64,000 bases of DNA from a virus: positions 1 to 64,000 of IMG/VR virus record IMGVR_UViG_3300031703_000003. One strand, given 5' to 3'. Shown here piece by piece: positions 5,573 to 49,540 of this stretch (position 1 is the stretch's first letter; each line of letters opens with the position of its first letter). The notes beneath the pieces are model-generated. The model worked only from the letters and a program-made list of their open reading frames with translations, ran no database searches and was not told the origin of the DNA. The position numbers and the translations under genes are program-made.

Positions 5573-6474
5573 ATTACTTCTAACCTTTCTATTTTACAAT
5601 TCTTCATAATGTCTTCTAAGTTAACTGGTTTGTTAATAATATTTCCCAATGGTATTCTTCCTATTTGGCTTACGTCTGTACTTCTGTTGTGTTGCTTCAT
5701 CCATGTAACAAATTGTTCACTATTGTAAAAGTCGGTAAGATCATTTAACGGATCAATTTCAAATGCATAATGCAAACACTCTCCTACGTTTGTAATGTCT
5801 TCGTATGAAGGATCATCATTATCTAGCCAACATTCTCTAAAATCTTTACCCAGTATTCTTTTTGCTAACCACACATCATGATTGTTATTTGTTAACAAAT
5901 GGTGTACTGGTGCATCAGCAAAAAGAGATATCGTGTCATTGTCTTTAAATCCTTGATCCCAATACTGAGATTGATGCCTGGTGCCGGGAAATGTTGATAA
6001 GCCTGGGCTGGTGTAGTTCTTTTCAATTTCGTGTGCTAATTGATTTAAAGTCAGTAGTACTGATAACATATCATCGAACTGTGTTTCAAACAACTGATTA
6101 ATATTTACCGGAATGTAATCTTTGTCATTTACTATATAAGGTTTTCTGAACATTAAAAATACAAGCCATCGATGAATACGATTAATATGCAATTGAAGAA
6201 CATCTGTCTGTAGATGTTTAAGTTCGCTGTTAGTAGGAAAGAAGCCAGGTATATCTATTCCCAACTTTATTAATTCAGTAAACCCGTTTGTAAGGTTGTC
6301 TATACTATTATACAGTAAGTCAACATGCGTGTTACTAGTTGACCCGAGTGCTACACATTCAGTAGTGTCTAATTCCATTGATGTAACTGTAGTTGCCCAG
6401 TTATGTATCCATGGATCATTAATAAGATCTATGTATAGGTTTTCGTTGTTAGTCAATGTTAGTTTTAATTTCAT
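5569..6474 (-). CDS. Unknown protein, paralogue of the gene at 12209-13192
   Basis: A 301-residue protein of no recognised family. Its C-terminal third matches the plus-strand gene at 12209-13192: ILGKDFRECWLDNDDP against VLGKEYLTCWLDMDNP, then an ITN(V/I) block, then IGRIPLGNIINK against IGKIPLGYCTNK, and the same ending of a Glu-Val or Glu-Met pair. No signal peptide or membrane segment is seen. It overlaps both neighbours by 4 bases and so belongs to the sugar operon. A role in glycan assembly is a guess from position only. Confidence 0.65.
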   Translation of the reverse strand: MKLKLTLTNNENLYIDLINDPWIHNWATTVTSMELDTTECVALGSTSNTHVDLLYNSIDNLTNGFTELIKLGIDIPGFFPTNSELKHLQTDVLQLHINRIHRWLVFLMFRKPYIVNDKDYIPVNINQLFETQFDDMLSVLLTLNQLAHEIEKNYTSPGLSTFPGTRHQSQYWDQGFKDNDTISLFADAPVHHLLTNNNHDVWLAKRILGKDFRECWLDNDDPSYEDITNVGECLHYAFEIDPLNDLTDFYNSEQFVTWMKQHNRSTDVSQIGRIPLGNIINKPVNLEDIMKNCKIERLEVI

Positions 6475-7265
6475 TTTCGCATGCCCTTAAACACAGTAGA
6501 TTGGAATAAGTCATTAGTGTTGTCGATGCTCTGAAAAAATGTCAGAGGTAGTGTATGTTGATCGCATAAGCGCTGCGTAGCTTTTACATCTTTAGGTAAG
6601 CAGGCTCCGCCATATCCACGTAACTCGGGCTTCACATCTAAGTATTCGTCTGGCATATCGCTGCTTCTTAAAAATGCTTCCTTAACTCTATCGTACTCTG
6701 CTCCAGTTGATTGGCATATTTCATAAAATACATTAGCAAATGTTATGCGAGTGGCGTTAAATGTGTTCCAATAGTACTTCATCATTTCTGATTCTACTGG
6801 AGTTACACGCATAGCGTCTTTGGGATACTCGCCATGGCTTCGTTGTACTAAGTAATAATGATTAACATTGTTGGTTCCTACTAATAATAAGCGATGATTA
6901 AAAACAAAATCATATTCTGCACTACGTTCTTTAAGGAATTCCGGAACAAACACTATCTGATCGTTATGCTTATCAATGAGACGTTGTGTAGTTCCTGGCT
7001 CTATTGTACTTTTTATTGCAATAACGCCCTTGTATTCTAGTTCATACAACTCATCTACTACTGATTCTACTATAGATGTGTTGCAACTGCCGTCTTTATT
7101 CGCAGGTGTTGGTACACATATGTATACGATTTCAGTAGTTAATATATTAACCATACGTGTATTAATTATAATGTCGTGGCATGTTACTTCAAATCCCAAT
7201 CGGTTGAAGCCAGCATTCAATGCTGATCCTACTATGCCTTCGCTTCCTACTATACCTATCTTCAT
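6471..7265 (-). CDS. Short UDP-sugar dehydrogenase-like protein (lacks C-terminal domain)
   Basis: A 264-residue relative of nucleotide-sugar dehydrogenases. It has the NAD Rossmann start KIGIVGSEGIVGSALN, VYICVPTPANKDGS, IKSTIEPGT, VFVPEFLKE, and the catalytic block ELRGYGGACLPKDVKA, with the expected Cys and Lys. It stops about 30 residues after this block, so the whole C-terminal nucleotide-binding domain of the family (total usually above 400) is missing. It may oxidise a different substrate, work with another subunit, or be inactive. It overlaps its neighbours by four bases on both sides. The full-length paralogue is at 1624-2853. Confidence 0.65.
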   Translation of the reverse strand: MKIGIVGSEGIVGSALNAGFNRLGFEVTCHDIIINTRMVNILTTEIVYICVPTPANKDGSCNTSIVESVVDELYELEYKGVIAIKSTIEPGTTQRLIDKHNDQIVFVPEFLKERSAEYDFVFNHRLLLVGTNNVNHYYLVQRSHGEYPKDAMRVTPVESEMMKYYWNTFNATRITFANVFYEICQSTGAEYDRVKEAFLRSSDMPDEYLDVKPELRGYGGACLPKDVKATQRLCDQHTLPLTFFQSIDNTNDLFQSTVFKGMRK

Positions 7266-45108: not shown

Positions 45109-46884
45109 ATGCTAAAGATTAAAAATATAACCGTACGTAACTTCATGAGTGTTGGCAATGTGACACAGGCTGTGCATTTTGACAACGCTGGGTTAACACT
45201 AGTGTTAGGCAATAACATGGACCTTGGCGGTGATGGTTCTCGTAACGGAACAGGCAAAACAACTATCGTTAACGCATTAAGTTATGCAATGTACGGCGCA
45301 GCATTGTACAATATTAAAAAGGATAACTTAGTAAACAAAACAAACAACAAGGGCATGCTTGTAACATGTGACTTCGAAATGAATGGAATTGACTATCGTA
45401 TTGAGCGTGGTCGTAAAGCCAACGTATTTAAATTCCTTGTTAATAACGTAGATGATAATGCTGAGATTACAGATGAAATGCAAGGCGAAGGACGTGAGAG
45501 TCAGCGTGTAATTGAGCGTGTGCTTGGCATGAGTCACACAATGTTTAAACACATTGTTGCATTGAATACATACACAGAACCGTTTCTCAGTATGCGAGCA
45601 AATGATCAGCGCGAGTTAATTGAACAGCTCCTTGGTATTACAAAGCTAAGTGAAAAGGCTGACGTACTTAAAGAACTTGTTAGGACTAGCAAAGATAAAA
45701 TACAACACGAAACATATCGTATTCGCGCGTCCGAGGAAGCAAACGAACACATAGGTAGTACTATCAAAGACCTAGAACGCAGACGTAGCATTTGGGAACA
45801 GAAGCGTACTAAAGATATGCAAAACTTTAAAACCGACTTGTTAAATCTACAACACATTAACGTTGATGATGAACTAGAAGCACACGCAAAGTTTGAAATA
45901 TTTCAAAGTAAAAAAACACAAATAGATACTTTAACTGCGGAAATAGCAAGGCTAACTACTAGTAACGAGCGCGAACAGAAACGGTTAGACAAGGCACAAA
46001 ACGACCTTAATGCTACGTTGGAACACACATGCTATGCGTGTGGACAAGACTTACATGACGAACAGCATGAGAAGATTGTTGCAGAGAAAAATGAAATACT
46101 AACTGAAAGTAAAGAACATGTTACTGAATATGTTACTAAAATAGAAGAGTATACCATTGCATTAAATGAAATTGGTCCACTTGACATTGCACCTAATATG
46201 CACTATAATAGTATAAAGGAAGCATACGAACACCAGAACAAATTAAGTGCTACTAGTGCAAACATTGATCGTGCCGTAGATGACATAAATCCATACGATG
46301 ATCAAATAATTACATTAAAAAGCACTGGTCTGCAGGTTGTTGACTGGAGTGAGGTAAATAGACTAAACGAACTAAGAGAACATCAGGAGTTTTTATTGAA
46401 ACTACTTACAAACAAAGACAGCTTTGTACGTAAGAAAATCATTGAACAAAACTTACAGTTCCTTAACACACGGCTAGAATATTACATTACACGATTAGGC
46501 CTTCCACATGAAGTACAGTTCCAAAGTGACTTAACTATTACTATTACACAGTTAGGACAGGACTTGGACTTCGACAACTTGTCAAGAGGCGAGCGTAACA
46601 GATTAATACTTGGACTAAGCTGGAGTTTTCGTGATGTGTTTGAAAGTATGAACCATCCTATAAACTTGGTTTGTATCGACGAACTAGTAGACAGCGGCAT
46701 GGACACTATTGGTGTCGAGAGTGCATTAGGCGTTCTGAAGAAAATGGAACGTGAACGTCATAAGAACATTTTACTTATTAGTCACAGAGATGAGCTAGTA
46801 GGCAGAGTAGACAATGTATTACAAGTTACAAAAGAGAATGGCTTCACTACATTTAATGTAGAATTGGAAGTCATTGACGCATAG
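45109..46884 (+). CDS. 46: Recombination endonuclease subunit gp46 (Rad50-like ATPase)
   Basis: A 591-residue SMC/Rad50-type ATPase (T4 gp46: 560). It has Walker A in GDGSRNGTGKTTIV near residue 41, a Q-loop region, a coiled-coil arm broken by a zinc hook CYACGQ near residue 307, the ABC signature LSRGERNRL near 490 and Walker B LVCIDELVDSG near 525. It uses ATP to control the gp47 nuclease. Start is adjacent to the gp47 stop, typical of their coupled translation. Confidence 0.93.
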   Translation: MLKIKNITVRNFMSVGNVTQAVHFDNAGLTLVLGNNMDLGGDGSRNGTGKTTIVNALSYAMYGAALYNIKKDNLVNKTNNKGMLVTCDFEMNGIDYRIERGRKANVFKFLVNNVDDNAEITDEMQGEGRESQRVIERVLGMSHTMFKHIVALNTYTEPFLSMRANDQRELIEQLLGITKLSEKADVLKELVRTSKDKIQHETYRIRASEEANEHIGSTIKDLERRRSIWEQKRTKDMQNFKTDLLNLQHINVDDELEAHAKFEIFQSKKTQIDTLTAEIARLTTSNEREQKRLDKAQNDLNATLEHTCYACGQDLHDEQHEKIVAEKNEILTESKEHVTEYVTKIEEYTIALNEIGPLDIAPNMHYNSIKEAYEHQNKLSATSANIDRAVDDINPYDDQIITLKSTGLQVVDWSEVNRLNELREHQEFLLKLLTNKDSFVRKKIIEQNLQFLNTRLEYYITRLGLPHEVQFQSDLTITITQLGQDLDFDNLSRGERNRLILGLSWSFRDVFESMNHPINLVCIDELVDSGMDTIGVESALGVLKKMERERHKNILLISHRDELVGRVDNVLQVTKENGFTTFNVELEVIDA

Positions 46885-46895
46885 AAGAATATAAT

Positions 46896-47348
46896 TTGAG
46901 CAGTGAAAGCAAAACTAGCAACTGGACTTATAACAATGTAGCAGTTGATGAACTGCCGGTAGATGTTGAAGGGTTTGTATATTTAATTACAAACCTTACT
47001 AACAACCGTAAGTATATAGGTAAGAAGTTAGCAAGGTTTAAAACAACTAAGCCTCCTCTTAAAGGAAGAAAGAATAAGAGACGAGGCACAAAGGAAAGTG
47101 ATTGGAGGACCTATTGGGGTTCTTCAGATCATTTGAATGCAGATTTATTAATGTTAGGTGAAGAAAGCTTCACTAGAGAAATTATACATTACTGTCCTAG
47201 CAGAGGAGTATTAAGTTACTTAGAAGCAAAAGAACAGTTTGATCGTAAAGTTTTAGAATCAGATGATTACTACAACGGTATTATTAATGTGAGAGTTGGA
47301 AGTTCTAAGATTCTCACAGAGCATTTAAGAAAGGTCGACAAGCTATAG
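46896..47348 (+). CDS. GIY-YIG nuclease-like protein
   Basis: A 150-residue protein with GFVYLITNLTNNRKYIGKKL, the GIY-YIG pattern, and a YWGSSDHL block; EAKEQFDRKVLE may supply the metal-binding Glu. Members are UvrC-like or Seg-type endonucleases. It starts with TTG at 46896, preceded by AGAAG, and is 11 bases after gp46, so is probably expressed with it. It might be a repair nuclease or a free-standing mobile nuclease. Confidence 0.75.
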   Translation: MSSESKTSNWTYNNVAVDELPVDVEGFVYLITNLTNNRKYIGKKLARFKTTKPPLKGRKNKRRGTKESDWRTYWGSSDHLNADLLMLGEESFTREIIHYCPSRGVLSYLEAKEQFDRKVLESDDYYNGIINVRVGSSKILTEHLRKVDKL

Positions 47349-47377
47349 CATTTATGTTATGCTGCTAACAAGAAATA

Positions 47378-47439
47378 CACAGACACCAAGTCAATTCAAG
47401 CACAGACACCAAGTCAATTCAAGCACAGACACCAAGTCA
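47378..47439 (+). repeat. Tandem 23-base repeats, 2.7 copies
   Basis: Units at 47378-47400, 47401-47423 and 47424-47439 (partial) start CACAGACACCAAGTCA; the first two are identical over 23 bases. A second small repeat (ACATTTCTAAT, twice, 47460-47481) follows. No spacer variation is seen, so it is not a CRISPR. It stands between gp46's transcript end and the probable RNA gene. Confidence 0.85.
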
Positions 47440-47484
47440 CGCTAATACAAACACAAAATACATTTCTAATACATTTCTAATAAA

Positions 47485-47737
47485 GGCACCACATGGCTCT
47501 GTTTGGTCGGGTTTCTCGACTACACCTTGAGGTTACGTGCTAATTCACGTGATCGGATACTGGTGTGCCCTTGGTCAATGCGCTGGTCTGACCAACCAAA
47601 ATGAGTAAGCTCTCCTGACAATTTGGAACTTACGAGTAGCCTTTAGTCGTCGTTATGGCAATAGGTGTTCTTGCGCTGATAAGCAGTAAGTAAAGAGGTA
47701 CCGCACAACCGCCTCTTCCGTGTGCTAATACGGTTTT
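47485..47737 (+). ncRNA. Probable structured non-coding RNA of unknown class
   Basis: This non-coding stretch has a high density of hairpins: TGGTCG/CGACTA (47504-47522), ACGTG/CACGT (47535-47550), TTGGTC/GACCAA (47571-47595), GTAAG/CTTAC (47605-47633), AAGAGG/CCTCTT (47693-47717) and CCGTG/TACGG (47718-47733), the last followed by TTTT as a terminator would be. GGCA at 47485 can close the 5' branches with TGCC at 47566. CGACTA can also pair with TAGTCG at 47644-47649, an alternative fold. Base composition is richer in G and C than the surrounding gaps. It does not show the conserved signatures of tRNA, tmRNA, RNase P or 6S that I know. Confidence 0.55.
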
Positions 47738-47860
47738 ACTATAACGAGTGGGTAACTTTGATGGGAAATGTTCTGACATTTTTATTGAAATTATTTTGCA
47801 TTTGGCTTTATAAAGCTAAGTGTGAATAACAAATCAAGGAAATAGTAACTAATATATAAT

Positions 47861-47868
47861 CATAAATA
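47861..47868 (+). promoter_or_regulatory. Possible late promoter (CATAAATA) before the gene at 48006
   Basis: CATAAATATAATTACTATG lies 138 bases before the ATG at 48006. It matches the core of the other late boxes. The leader it would make contains two stable hairpins. Between 47738 and 47860 no gene is seen, only AT-rich sequence with a GCTTTATAAAGC palindrome at 47804-47815. Confidence 0.4.
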
Positions 47869-47934
47869 TAATTACTATGTTGTATATCACTATTAGTTAA
47901 TCTTAAGTATAAGAGTTCTAAAAATAACATTGAA

Positions 47935-47978
47935 GTAATGCTTTAGCATTACGAAGATGATGATGTCGTAAGACATCG
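47935..47978 (+). other. Two adjacent leader hairpins with 4-base loops
   Basis: GTAATGC-TTTA-GCATTAC (47935-47952, 7 bp) and TGATGTC-GTAA-GACATCG (47961-47978, 6 bp plus a T-G pair) in the leader of 48006-48461. The second loop, GTAA, is of the GNRA type. They could protect the 5' end or bind a regulator. Confidence 0.55.
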
Positions 47979-48005
47979 ATATACTAAACAATATATAATC
48001 TTAAT

Positions 48006-48461
48006 ATGAAATGGACAGCTATGACTTTTGAAGAGTTCTGTATAAAATTTGTCGAGTGGACTATAAGAGATGTAGAAGCAAAAAAACTTGATGGCTTTGC
48101 TGTATGTCCATTTGCCCGTAAGGCTAGAATAACTAATGCAATTCAGTTTATGGATTGCAGAGATAATAACTTAGATAGTTATAGAGCATTTGATAGAACT
48201 AAATTTGAAATTGGCATTGCGTGGGTAGATGGTAATAATATAGTAGATGTACAGACTGTACTTGACGTCTTGTCAAGCGAACATCCAGAACTACTATACT
48301 TTACTAGTACACCAGAATCTGGGCATTTTGTTCAAAACTTTACTAATTGTGTGTTTATACAATCACGAGAGGACATAATGGAAAAGAGAGCAGTAATGCA
48401 AAAGACCAGCTATTACGACAGCTGGCCTAAAGCTTACTTAGATAGTATTACTTCCGTGTAA
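48006..48461 (+). CDS. Unknown protein with CPFA motif
   Basis: A 151-residue protein with FAVCPFARKARITNAIQFMD and a second conserved-looking half LLYFTSTPESGHFVQNFTNC. The CPFA block recalls the DUF1415 type of bacterial proteins, but I would not assign the family firmly. No membrane segment. Two starts are possible, ATG 48006 and ATG 48021; the latter has GGACAGCT before it. It stands alone after the RNA region and converges on the gp26 frameshift product. Confidence 0.65.
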   Translation: MKWTAMTFEEFCIKFVEWTIRDVEAKKLDGFAVCPFARKARITNAIQFMDCRDNNLDSYRAFDRTKFEIGIAWVDGNNIVDVQTVLDVLSSEHPELLYFTSTPESGHFVQNFTNCVFIQSREDIMEKRAVMQKTSYYDSWPKAYLDSITSV

Positions 48462-48478: not shown

Positions 48479-48696
48479 GCTGCTTTTGCAGCCGCGTTAG
48501 ATTCTTCTTTGTTTTTGTTTAATCGTTCTACAAATAATGCCAACGCATCAACAGGCATTGTCATTATTTCATTGTATGAAACTAAACCTCCCGATTTGAT
48601 AACTAAATCAAAATAGCTAGACTCTGTTGCTTTTAAGTCATTGTTGTAACGTTCAACAATTTCATATATTTCACTGGGTTGTCGAGACGCTATCAA
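48466..48696 (-). CDS. Downstream half of a probable -1 frameshift product of gp26 (tail-assembly chaperone-like)
   Basis: This 76-residue frame has no ATG start near its beginning; the first possible start is a TTG (48696) inside the gp26 stop region and without a ribosome binding site. It lies in the -1 frame of gp26 and is open across the slippery site, so it is best read as an extension of gp26. It is helical and charged: PSEIYEIVERYNNDLKATES, MPVDALALFVERLNKNKEE, and Ala/Lys-rich end. Position relative to gp26 and the tape-measure genes fits the T4 gp51 or the T part of lambda GT. Independent translation is possible but less likely. Confidence 0.6.
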   Translation of the reverse strand: MIASRQPSEIYEIVERYNNDLKATESSYFDLVIKSGGLVSYNEIMTMPVDALALFVERLNKNKEESNAAAKAAKTR

Positions 48697-48711
48697 CCCG
48701 CGAAAAAATTT
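48676..48711 (-). promoter_or_regulatory. Programmed -1 ribosomal frameshift signal
   Basis: Minus strand, gp26 frame: GCA AAT TTT TTC GCG GGT TGA. A_AAT_TTT (48711-48705) is a canonical X_XXY_YYZ heptamer; the overlapping T_TTT_TTC is a second one. Five bases on, GGGTTG (48699-48694) pairs with CAACCC (48681-48676), a perfect 6-base stem around a 12-base loop. The stop codon TGA of gp26 falls in this stem. The -1 frame is open on both sides. Confidence 0.75.
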
Positions 48712-49523
48712 GCAAGATCCAAGTCAATGGTAGTTTCCCACTCGTGTCCACAATCTTGGCATTTTGCGTTAAACGATGTATCAATTTGATTGTCGCTTAG
48801 ATCTTCTACGCATGTCTTAATTAAATCATAATCAGACTTTGTAATTGACTGTAACCATTCTAGTATAGTAGCATAGTCAACAGTTGCTTCTGACTCAGGC
48901 GCAGTAACACTAGTAATTGAGTTAGCAATCAACTTCACTGTAATGTCTGCAATTTCAATAAACGTTTCACCAAATCTACGTTGGCGTTCTTCGTCATCTA
49001 ATTCAGCGTCACTCAAGTTCTCAATTAACTTTTGTTGCTTAATACGCTGTAGTTGAAGCCTAGTGCGATCGTATAAGTTATACGGCTTGCACGAAAGGTT
49101 AAACCCGTTGTCAAAATTAACCTCGTTTGAGCTCTCATTTAATGTTACAGTACCTAGTAACGCATTGGTACTGATGCTTAATTGGTTCATGTGATCGCAT
49201 TTTGGACATTTTATATCAACATCAATTGCTTCACCGTAACTTGCTTGTCTAATAGCAATTAGTACAACCATTAGATCATTCACTGGCATTTCGTGTGGAT
49301 CTCCGATACCTGGCGCACAACTTTTAATTAAACTAAAAGTAGCTTCACCGTTGAACAATGCATCTGGTGTCTTAGATACAAGTTCATCTCTTGCTGTCAT
49401 ACTGTATACAGCAAGTTCACCGTCTACACTTAATGTTGGCTTTGTATTATAATACCTGCCGCCACTTGGCAGTGCAACATATAACGCAGGCTTTCTATAT
49501 GCCTGAATAAGAGGATTTGTCAT
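48693..49523 (-). CDS. 26: gp26-like baseplate hub/tail assembly protein
   Basis: A 276-residue homologue of the T4 gp26 family (T4 base plate protein family). It has VALPSGGRYYN near the N-terminus, FSLIKSCAPGIGDPHEMPVND, and two zinc-type pairs, CPKCDHM near residue 108 and CQDCGHEWE near 257, and ends in ANFFAG. The start ATG 49523 has GGAG 10 bases upstream; an ATG at 49535 would leave no site. A late promoter (49558-49565) gives a leader of about 30 bases. At its end is a strong -1 frameshift signal that would make a 352-residue fusion. Confidence 0.75.
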   Translation of the reverse strand: MTNPLIQAYRKPALYVALPSGGRYYNTKPTLSVDGELAVYSMTARDELVSKTPDALFNGEATFSLIKSCAPGIGDPHEMPVNDLMVVLIAIRQASYGEAIDVDIKCPKCDHMNQLSISTNALLGTVTLNESSNEVNFDNGFNLSCKPYNLYDRTRLQLQRIKQQKLIENLSDAELDDEERQRRFGETFIEIADITVKLIANSITSVTAPESEATVDYATILEWLQSITKSDYDLIKTCVEDLSDNQIDTSFNAKCQDCGHEWETTIDLDLANFFAG

Positions 49524-49532
49524 TTTTTTCTC

Positions 49533-49540
49533 CATAAATA
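49533..49540 (+). promoter_or_regulatory. T4-late-type promoter (CATAAATA) of the tape-measure genes
   Basis: CATAAATACTGTAG lies 58 bases before the ATG at 49598, which has AAGGAAACC before it. It faces away from gp26 and lies inside the leader made from the opposite late box. Confidence 0.5.

Follow-up and report, generated by a model that had tools for sequence, protein, structure and literature searches.

What occupies the non-coding gap downstream of a gp46-type gene in a large viral genome, and what might it do? The DNA analysed here, referred to as the window, is a stretch of 64,000 nucleotides within a 71,496-base virus record (IMG/VR IMGVR_UViG_3300031703_000003). A first, sequence-only reading had proposed that 253 nucleotides of this gap, at 47485-47737, are non-coding and form a structured RNA. 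The comparison of homologous loci described below leads to a larger RNA, to relatives in bacterial islands, and to several competing proposals for its function.

Extent and coding status of the RNA

That 47485-47737 is non-coding and structured is borne out by covariation among homologues; its limits are not. Comparative sequence analysis indicates that the window carries a structured RNA of about 500 nucleotides on the + strand, at about 47475-47980 with approximate ends, of which the 253 nucleotides are a part. Conservation spans ~47475 to ~47860 and appears again at 47929-47980 (47-locus alignment; 59 homologues). The GC content of 47485-47737 is 46% vs ~35% in the surroundings. The fold of the lone sequence is no better than that of shuffles (z = -0.77; 46 of 200 shuffles equally good), and the reverse strand gives z = +1.07. 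The proof of structure is comparative; single-sequence folding would not have decided the matter. From the strand-specific structure and the conservation, we infer that the RNA is transcribed in one piece.

ARAGORN found no tRNA in the window, and neither ARAGORN nor Rfam returned a tRNA or tmRNA, RNase P, 6S or group I intron match for the window sequence. No Rfam 15 family reached its gathering score in the window, and a search of 47350-48050 at E<=5 gave nothing except a weak miRNA match. Two candidates were rejected: a 12-codon frame at 47655 (MAIGVLALISSK) is not kept, the start being missing in many rows, and a tmRNA-like reading of the UUAAUAA loop is opposed by the negative ARAGORN result and the variability of the loop. 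A late-promoter search (TATAAATA) found four sites in the window, none close to the RNA.

Homologous loci and position in phage genomes

Relatives of gp46 in IMG/VR yielded loci L001 to L080, with the window as L081; L001 and L002 are identical to the window. The segment 47340-48010 matched 72 of the 81 loci by blastn, and the nine negative loci end 68-679 nt past gp46. A pattern for one conserved hairpin (Pd, below) recovered at least 117 further loci, with a profile match in at least 111. Synteny was scored in 261 viral loci with the RNA, about 70 of them found via gp46 and the rest via RNA patterns; overlapping loci of one contig were left unmerged. The conserved neighbours in the window are:

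45109-46884, + strand: gp46-type recombination nuclease subunit, conserved upstream neighbour
46896-47348, + strand: SegE-type GIY-YIG protein (PF19835), frequent upstream neighbour
48693-49535, - strand: gp26-type baseplate hub gene, conserved convergent downstream neighbour

In 220 of the 261 loci the gp46 gene precedes the RNA on the same strand; it is beyond the flank in 38, undetected in three and misplaced in none. The hub gene follows the RNA in convergent orientation in 203, is beyond the flank in 56, undetected in two, and again never misplaced. A SegE GIY-YIG gene was found upstream in 200. Across the loci the identity drops to 45% for gp46 and 47% for the portal protein. On these comparative grounds the RNA is a large, vertically inherited structured element of big aquatic T4-like phages, fixed between gp46 and the hub gene.

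Between the SegE gene and the RNA, 47375-47445 contains three near-identical direct repeats (ACAGACACCAAGTCAATTCAAGC...), and related CAGACA..AAGTC stretches occur upstream of the RNA in several relatives. At the far end of the window, 1-20412 is a run of - strand genes, sugar-related and radical-SAM-like by the look of their ORF translations.

With a covariance model, R1, one copy was found in 29 of 30 long contigs and two in the other (G353). A 318-kb phage contig (G026; L342-L345) has four copies, one of them at the canonical place. In two of the G026 copies, the A+T-rich, hairpin-bearing 3' stretches are almost identical. Among cultured relatives, searches with profiles in the gp46 region and with R1 on whole records gave no match in Phosso, PA5oct or Vibrio 2.275, and no convincing copy in Atu_ph07 (one marginal match, E 0.009, 61 nt). 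A genome scan with the 3' pattern gave no matches, and blastn found no copy in plasmids.

Covariation and the fold

Covariation was measured in 59 close homologues (546 columns) by a G-test with average-product correction, in a custom R-scape-like script that is not R-scape, against 20 alignments simulated on the maximum-likelihood tree (AliSim, gaps overlaid). Eleven column pairs exceed this null at E<0.05, all canonical in at least 98% of rows, and the covariation term makes up 94 of 166 units in RNAalifold. The sequence-only reading had named compensatory changes in homologues as support, and these are present, with stems that covary beyond the phylogenetic null; neither the absence of covariation nor the random stem gain and loss that would have spoken against an RNA was encountered. 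Applied to 52 diverse rows, a 20-pair model is 97.3% paired and has a covariation score of 0.699 vs 0.228 when shuffled and 0.063-0.200 for slid controls, over which it is favoured by having been fitted on the same 52-row alignment. The elements of the fold are:

47475-47980, + strand, ends approximate: whole proposed RNA (47-locus alignment; covariation in 59 homologues)
47475-47600, + strand: 5' domain, which varies between phage groups (RNAalifold, pair counts)
47505-47511/47516-47522 (hairpin), 47523-47526/47562-47565 and 47531-47537/47548-47554, + strand: 5'-domain helices (RNAalifold, pair counts)
47605-47609/47629-47633 plus 47613-47615/47625-47627, + strand: helix Pa, within 47605-47633 (covariation)
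47636, 47639-47642/47663-47666, 47670, + strand: hairpin Pb, within 47636-47670 (covariation)
47651-47656 with 47741-47746, + strand: pseudoknot (G scores, strand-swap test, RNAalifold, 20-pair model)
47685-47688 with 47737-47740, + strand: helix Pf (pair table, covariation test, joint search)
47694-47716, + strand: hairpin Pd, near-invariant loop GUAYMGCNYAACCGC (covariation)
47717-47734, + strand: hairpin Pe, the final stem of the sequence-only reading (covariation)
47795-47807/47814-47826, + strand: long hairpin (pair table; conserved AGUGUG motif at 47819-47824)
47929-47978, + strand: 3' domain (covariation of 47932/47956, pair table)
47929-47932/47956-47959 around hairpin 47935-47941/47946-47952, then hairpin 47961-47967/47972-47978, + strand: 3'-domain helices

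Helix Pa, which surrounds a conserved AGCUCU/AAC internal loop, is 99.6-100% paired in the 52 diverse rows. The loop of Pb contains the 5' strand of the pseudoknot, and the 3' strand of Pf (47737-47740) abuts the pseudoknot 3' strand (47741-47746). The AGUGUG motif class occurs at its place in 132 of 143 loci vs two in a control stretch. The 5' domains of different loci fall into several unlike types. Across the sequences compared, the near-universal portion is the middle and 3' part (Pa, Pb, pseudoknot, Pf, Pd, Pe and the AGUGUG hairpin), and the 5' domain is exchangeable.

G scores in the pseudoknot are 36-60 for the pairs 47652-47655/47742-47745 (51-60 for three of them). When the strands were taken at fixed distances from the Pd loop, at least 8 bp formed in 106 of 147 unique phage and bacterial sequences vs 126 of 4000 pairings in which strands were exchanged between sequences at most 55% alike, and 46 of 52 clusters had at least seven pairs; this position-restricted test is not blind, its windows having been chosen after a free joint search had located the helix. 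The free search gives a weak excess, with 25 of 147 sequences exceeding the 95th percentile reached by swapped pairings. RNAalifold picked the helix unasked in the 52 diverse rows.

A pseudoknot had been suspected from the sequence, and one exists, in a place that had been missed. The long-distance pairing or switch first proposed, CGACTA at 47517-22 with TAGTCG at 47644-49, is contradicted by the alignment, where three of the six register pairs are 7-15% canonical and covariation is absent. The alternative local hairpin of CGACTA is real, with its register shifted to 47505-47511/47516-47522 (compensatory pair 47511/47516). A supposed GGCA/TGCC closure of the RNA (47485-88/47566-69) fails at 33% and 76% canonical in the two testable column pairs. 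Nor does the TTTT taken for a terminator mark the 3' end: UUUU at 47734-47737 runs into the Pf strand, and the RNA goes on.

Relation to RF01718 (Polynucleobacter-1)

The window sequence had seemed to belong to no known family, which holds at Rfam thresholds; distant syntenic homologues, however, match RF01718 over the full model. In a cmscan of 14 distant loci, RF01718 was above its gathering score in four, and it was above that score in 13 of 50 records. Where the two were compared, RF01718 lies directly 5' of the shared middle domain (in L184 at 1212-1357, followed by the middle domain). In the window itself, where at least 37 bits are needed, there is no RF01718 match at the gathering score or at E<=5, and none in the whole 71-kb record. 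A stretch of the window 5' domain, CUACACCUUGAGGUUACG, resembles CACUAUCC-UUAA-GGACG of RF01718 by eye only. Model R1 gives 137 bits for the window and 97-107 bits for RF01718-positive bacterial islands; it was built from phage and bacterial rows, and an earlier phage-only profile had already matched the bacterial copies. The 5' domain of the freshwater relatives is RF01718, and RF01718 is therefore only part of a larger RNA.

The 2010 motif survey by Weinberg rates Polynucleobacter-1 both a probable RNA and a probable cis-regulator, and gives its distribution as Burkholderiales and fresh water (PMC2864571). Apart from that paper, no literature was found under RF01718 or Polynucleobacter-1.

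Bacterial copies, islands and DUF6641

Scanning GTDB contigs with a pattern yielded 12 loci. Nine of these are real as judged by eye and by profile (five from Polynucleobacter, four from MAGs), and in every one of the nine RF01718 is followed by the middle domain; the other three are chance matches. Ten RF01718 copies occur in eight genomes, and RF01718 is above its cut-off in 5 of 299 genomes of the bacterial family. Two MAG loci labelled as other phyla (L204, Nitrospira lenta; L211, Cryomorphaceae) have RNA and DUF6641 close to the Polynucleobacter ones, likely through binning error and possibly through transfer.

A DUF6641 (PF20346) gene adjoins each of the 18 distinct bacterial RNA copies, that of L211 being cut by the contig end. 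Conversely, 22 DUF6641 matches comprise nine with RF01718 copies and 13 others. Twelve of the 13 were retrieved: three (L300, L305, L306) lie beside an RNA of another 5' type, eight have a protein gene in the place of the RNA, and one has neither. One of seven scanned proteins in this slot matches the replication protein family REP_ORF2-G2P (PF23343); the others, including one of 175 aa, have no Pfam match. Some slot proteins show HxH motifs by eye. In L298, L301, L302 and L303 the slot beside DUF6641 holds a divergent family of 150-175 aa, its gene preceded by a 310-425-nt non-coding gap with GTTGC-like repeats. The predicted fold of DUF6641 (pLDDT 81) has no PDB match (best E 0.32), and no literature on DUF6641 was found.

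Several bacterial copies lie in integrase islands with two tyrosine recombinases and a clamp-loader-like AAA ATPase. Among PHROGs this ATPase matches "clamp loader of DNA polymerase" best (E 4.7e-20); its RFC/DnaX likeness in NCBIfam is below cut-offs. It is 29-31% similar to phage proteins, a likeness of the generic RFC/DnaX AAA-fold kind. All six islands with enough flank hold a relative, which in one of them is only 25% identical.

Proposed functions: a possible replication origin or other roles

The reading favoured here, tentatively and at less than even confidence, is that the RNA is an RNA-primed replication-origin element common to the phages and to satellite-like islands. The transcript, folded with its pseudoknot, would be presented to DNA at its A+T-rich 3' end and form an R-loop, and cleavage would then yield a primer for a phage T4-type replisome. 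The islands would be satellite-like elements using the phage origin and replisome, which is proposed as the reason that they carry the RNA beside DUF6641 with a clamp-loader-like ATPase. A more specific version, in which the RNA is the origin of a whole branch of large T4-like phages and the islands adopted it instead of an initiator protein so that the phage replisome would copy them, is unlikely; if true, it would mean an RNA-encoded origin common to phage and satellite.

The DNA feature on which the proposal draws is:

47750-48000, no strand: A+T-rich stretch of ~24% GC, partly within the 3' part and partly beyond it; candidate unwinding element

The origin proposal draws on the T4 precedent, on divergent transcription, on the A+T-rich flank, on the contig with multiple copies and on the replication-like company of the RNA in the islands, each a weak argument on its own. 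The RNA sits in a region of divergent transcription in the window, as it does in three contigs of 121-148 kb. Across 48 phage clusters, mean GC content falls by 0.10 immediately 3' of the middle domain; intergenic A+T-rich dips are a common feature. T4 origins are described as consisting of a promoter plus an A+T-rich unwinding element, the primer being an R-loop, and oriE, oriF and oriG as lying in regions of divergent transcription (PMC3016281). Counted in favour are further the conserved fold and family, the fixed place among recombination and baseplate genes, the four-copy contig, and in the islands the constant presence of DUF6641, the REP_ORF2-G2P protein in one slot and the clamp-loader PHROG. 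Against an origin, the extra copies in the 318-kb contig are not all at transcription switches, nearly all long contigs have a single copy, and the four cultured relatives yielded no convincing one; the replication-protein match is confined to one slot protein, and the clamp-loader likeness is generic. GC3 skew tracks the gene strand and cannot show a replication origin.

The RNA could instead be ornate and trans-acting in the manner of GOLLD or ROOL: a scaffold, cage or regulator, abundant during infection and unrelated to replication. This contender is serious but likewise doubtful; under it, the islands would keep the RNA to interfere with the phage or exploit it. The conserved fold, pseudoknot and near-invariant loops exceed the needs of a primer, and this proposal accounts for the rich fold better than the origin does. 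A variable 5' and a conserved 3' part are also reported for GOLLD (PMC12286853), and the most abundant transcripts of phage ICP1 and its satellites are described as predicted non-coding (PMC7567579). On the other side, the window is devoid of tRNA, Rfam gives no GOLLD or ROOL match, and a 40-kb ICP1 stretch with its RNA gives no convincing match to the model (E 3.5).

That the RNA and DUF6641 form a defence, immunity or toxin-antitoxin-like RNA-protein system, the phage copy being a decoy or counter-measure, is improbable. The constant adjacency in bacteria would fit, as would an AbiEi-like gene next to the L317 copy (6275-6826, + strand; PADLOC E 2.6e-31); yet PADLOC has no match for DUF6641, the gene was not found in phage loci, and 9 of the 12 retrieved DUF6641 genes without RF01718 have no RNA at all. 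A cis-regulatory leader or 3' UTR of a neighbouring gene is very unlikely: Polynucleobacter-1 was entered as "cis-reg: y" (PMC2864571 Table 1) and the RNA precedes ORF 48006 in the window, but a homologue of this ORF, which is 3' of the RNA, is detectable in only 104 of the 261 viral loci (contig ends included), the bacterial DUF6641 gene is divergently oriented, and gene content on the other side of the RNA varies. A self-splicing intron or homing-endonuclease-linked ribozyme, suggested by the frequent SegE neighbour, is hardly credible for an intergenic RNA with no exons seen, no intron match in Rfam, and loci such as L092 and L121 that keep it with no GIY-YIG gene detected.

Comparison with known systems

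T4 oriF is located near genes 25 and 26. As in the origin proposal made here, oriF and oriG have a transcript near a transcription switch and A+T-rich downstream DNA; where PMC3016281 describes the T4 origin RNAs, a conserved fold is not mentioned, unlike the RNA here.

GOLLD and ROOL are, like this RNA, large, structured and phage-borne, and the arrangement of a variable 5' and conserved 3' part is shared with GOLLD as described in PMC12286853. The present RNA differs in giving no Rfam match to either, in its gene context and in a window without tRNA, and it is smaller than GOLLD. ICP1, with a ~800-nt non-coding transcript, and its satellite PLE, with the IIR transcript, offer a case in which phage and satellite both have abundant non-coding RNA; the account in PMC7567579 does not call the two homologues of each other, and the ICP1 stretch has no convincing match to the model of the present RNA.

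As for RF01718, syntenic freshwater phage homologues and the bacterial copies have it just 5' of the middle and 3' domain that they share with the window RNA; its model is 141 nt, vs ~500 nt or more here. Polynucleobacter-1, previously a probable cis-regulator of Burkholderiales and fresh water, is here a phage RNA fixed beside gp46. RF01718 is extended and reassigned: once taken for a probable cis-regulator in bacteria, it becomes an RNA of phages and mobile elements, of the "ornate phage RNA" kind. An orphan 141-nt Rfam motif is now recognised as one domain, the 5' one, of a ~500-nt RNA that is core to a branch of aquatic T4-like phages and also occurs in bacterial islands, and this RNA supplies a defined locus, a candidate partner (DUF6641) and a structure with which a role in phage replication or in phage-satellite conflict can be tested.
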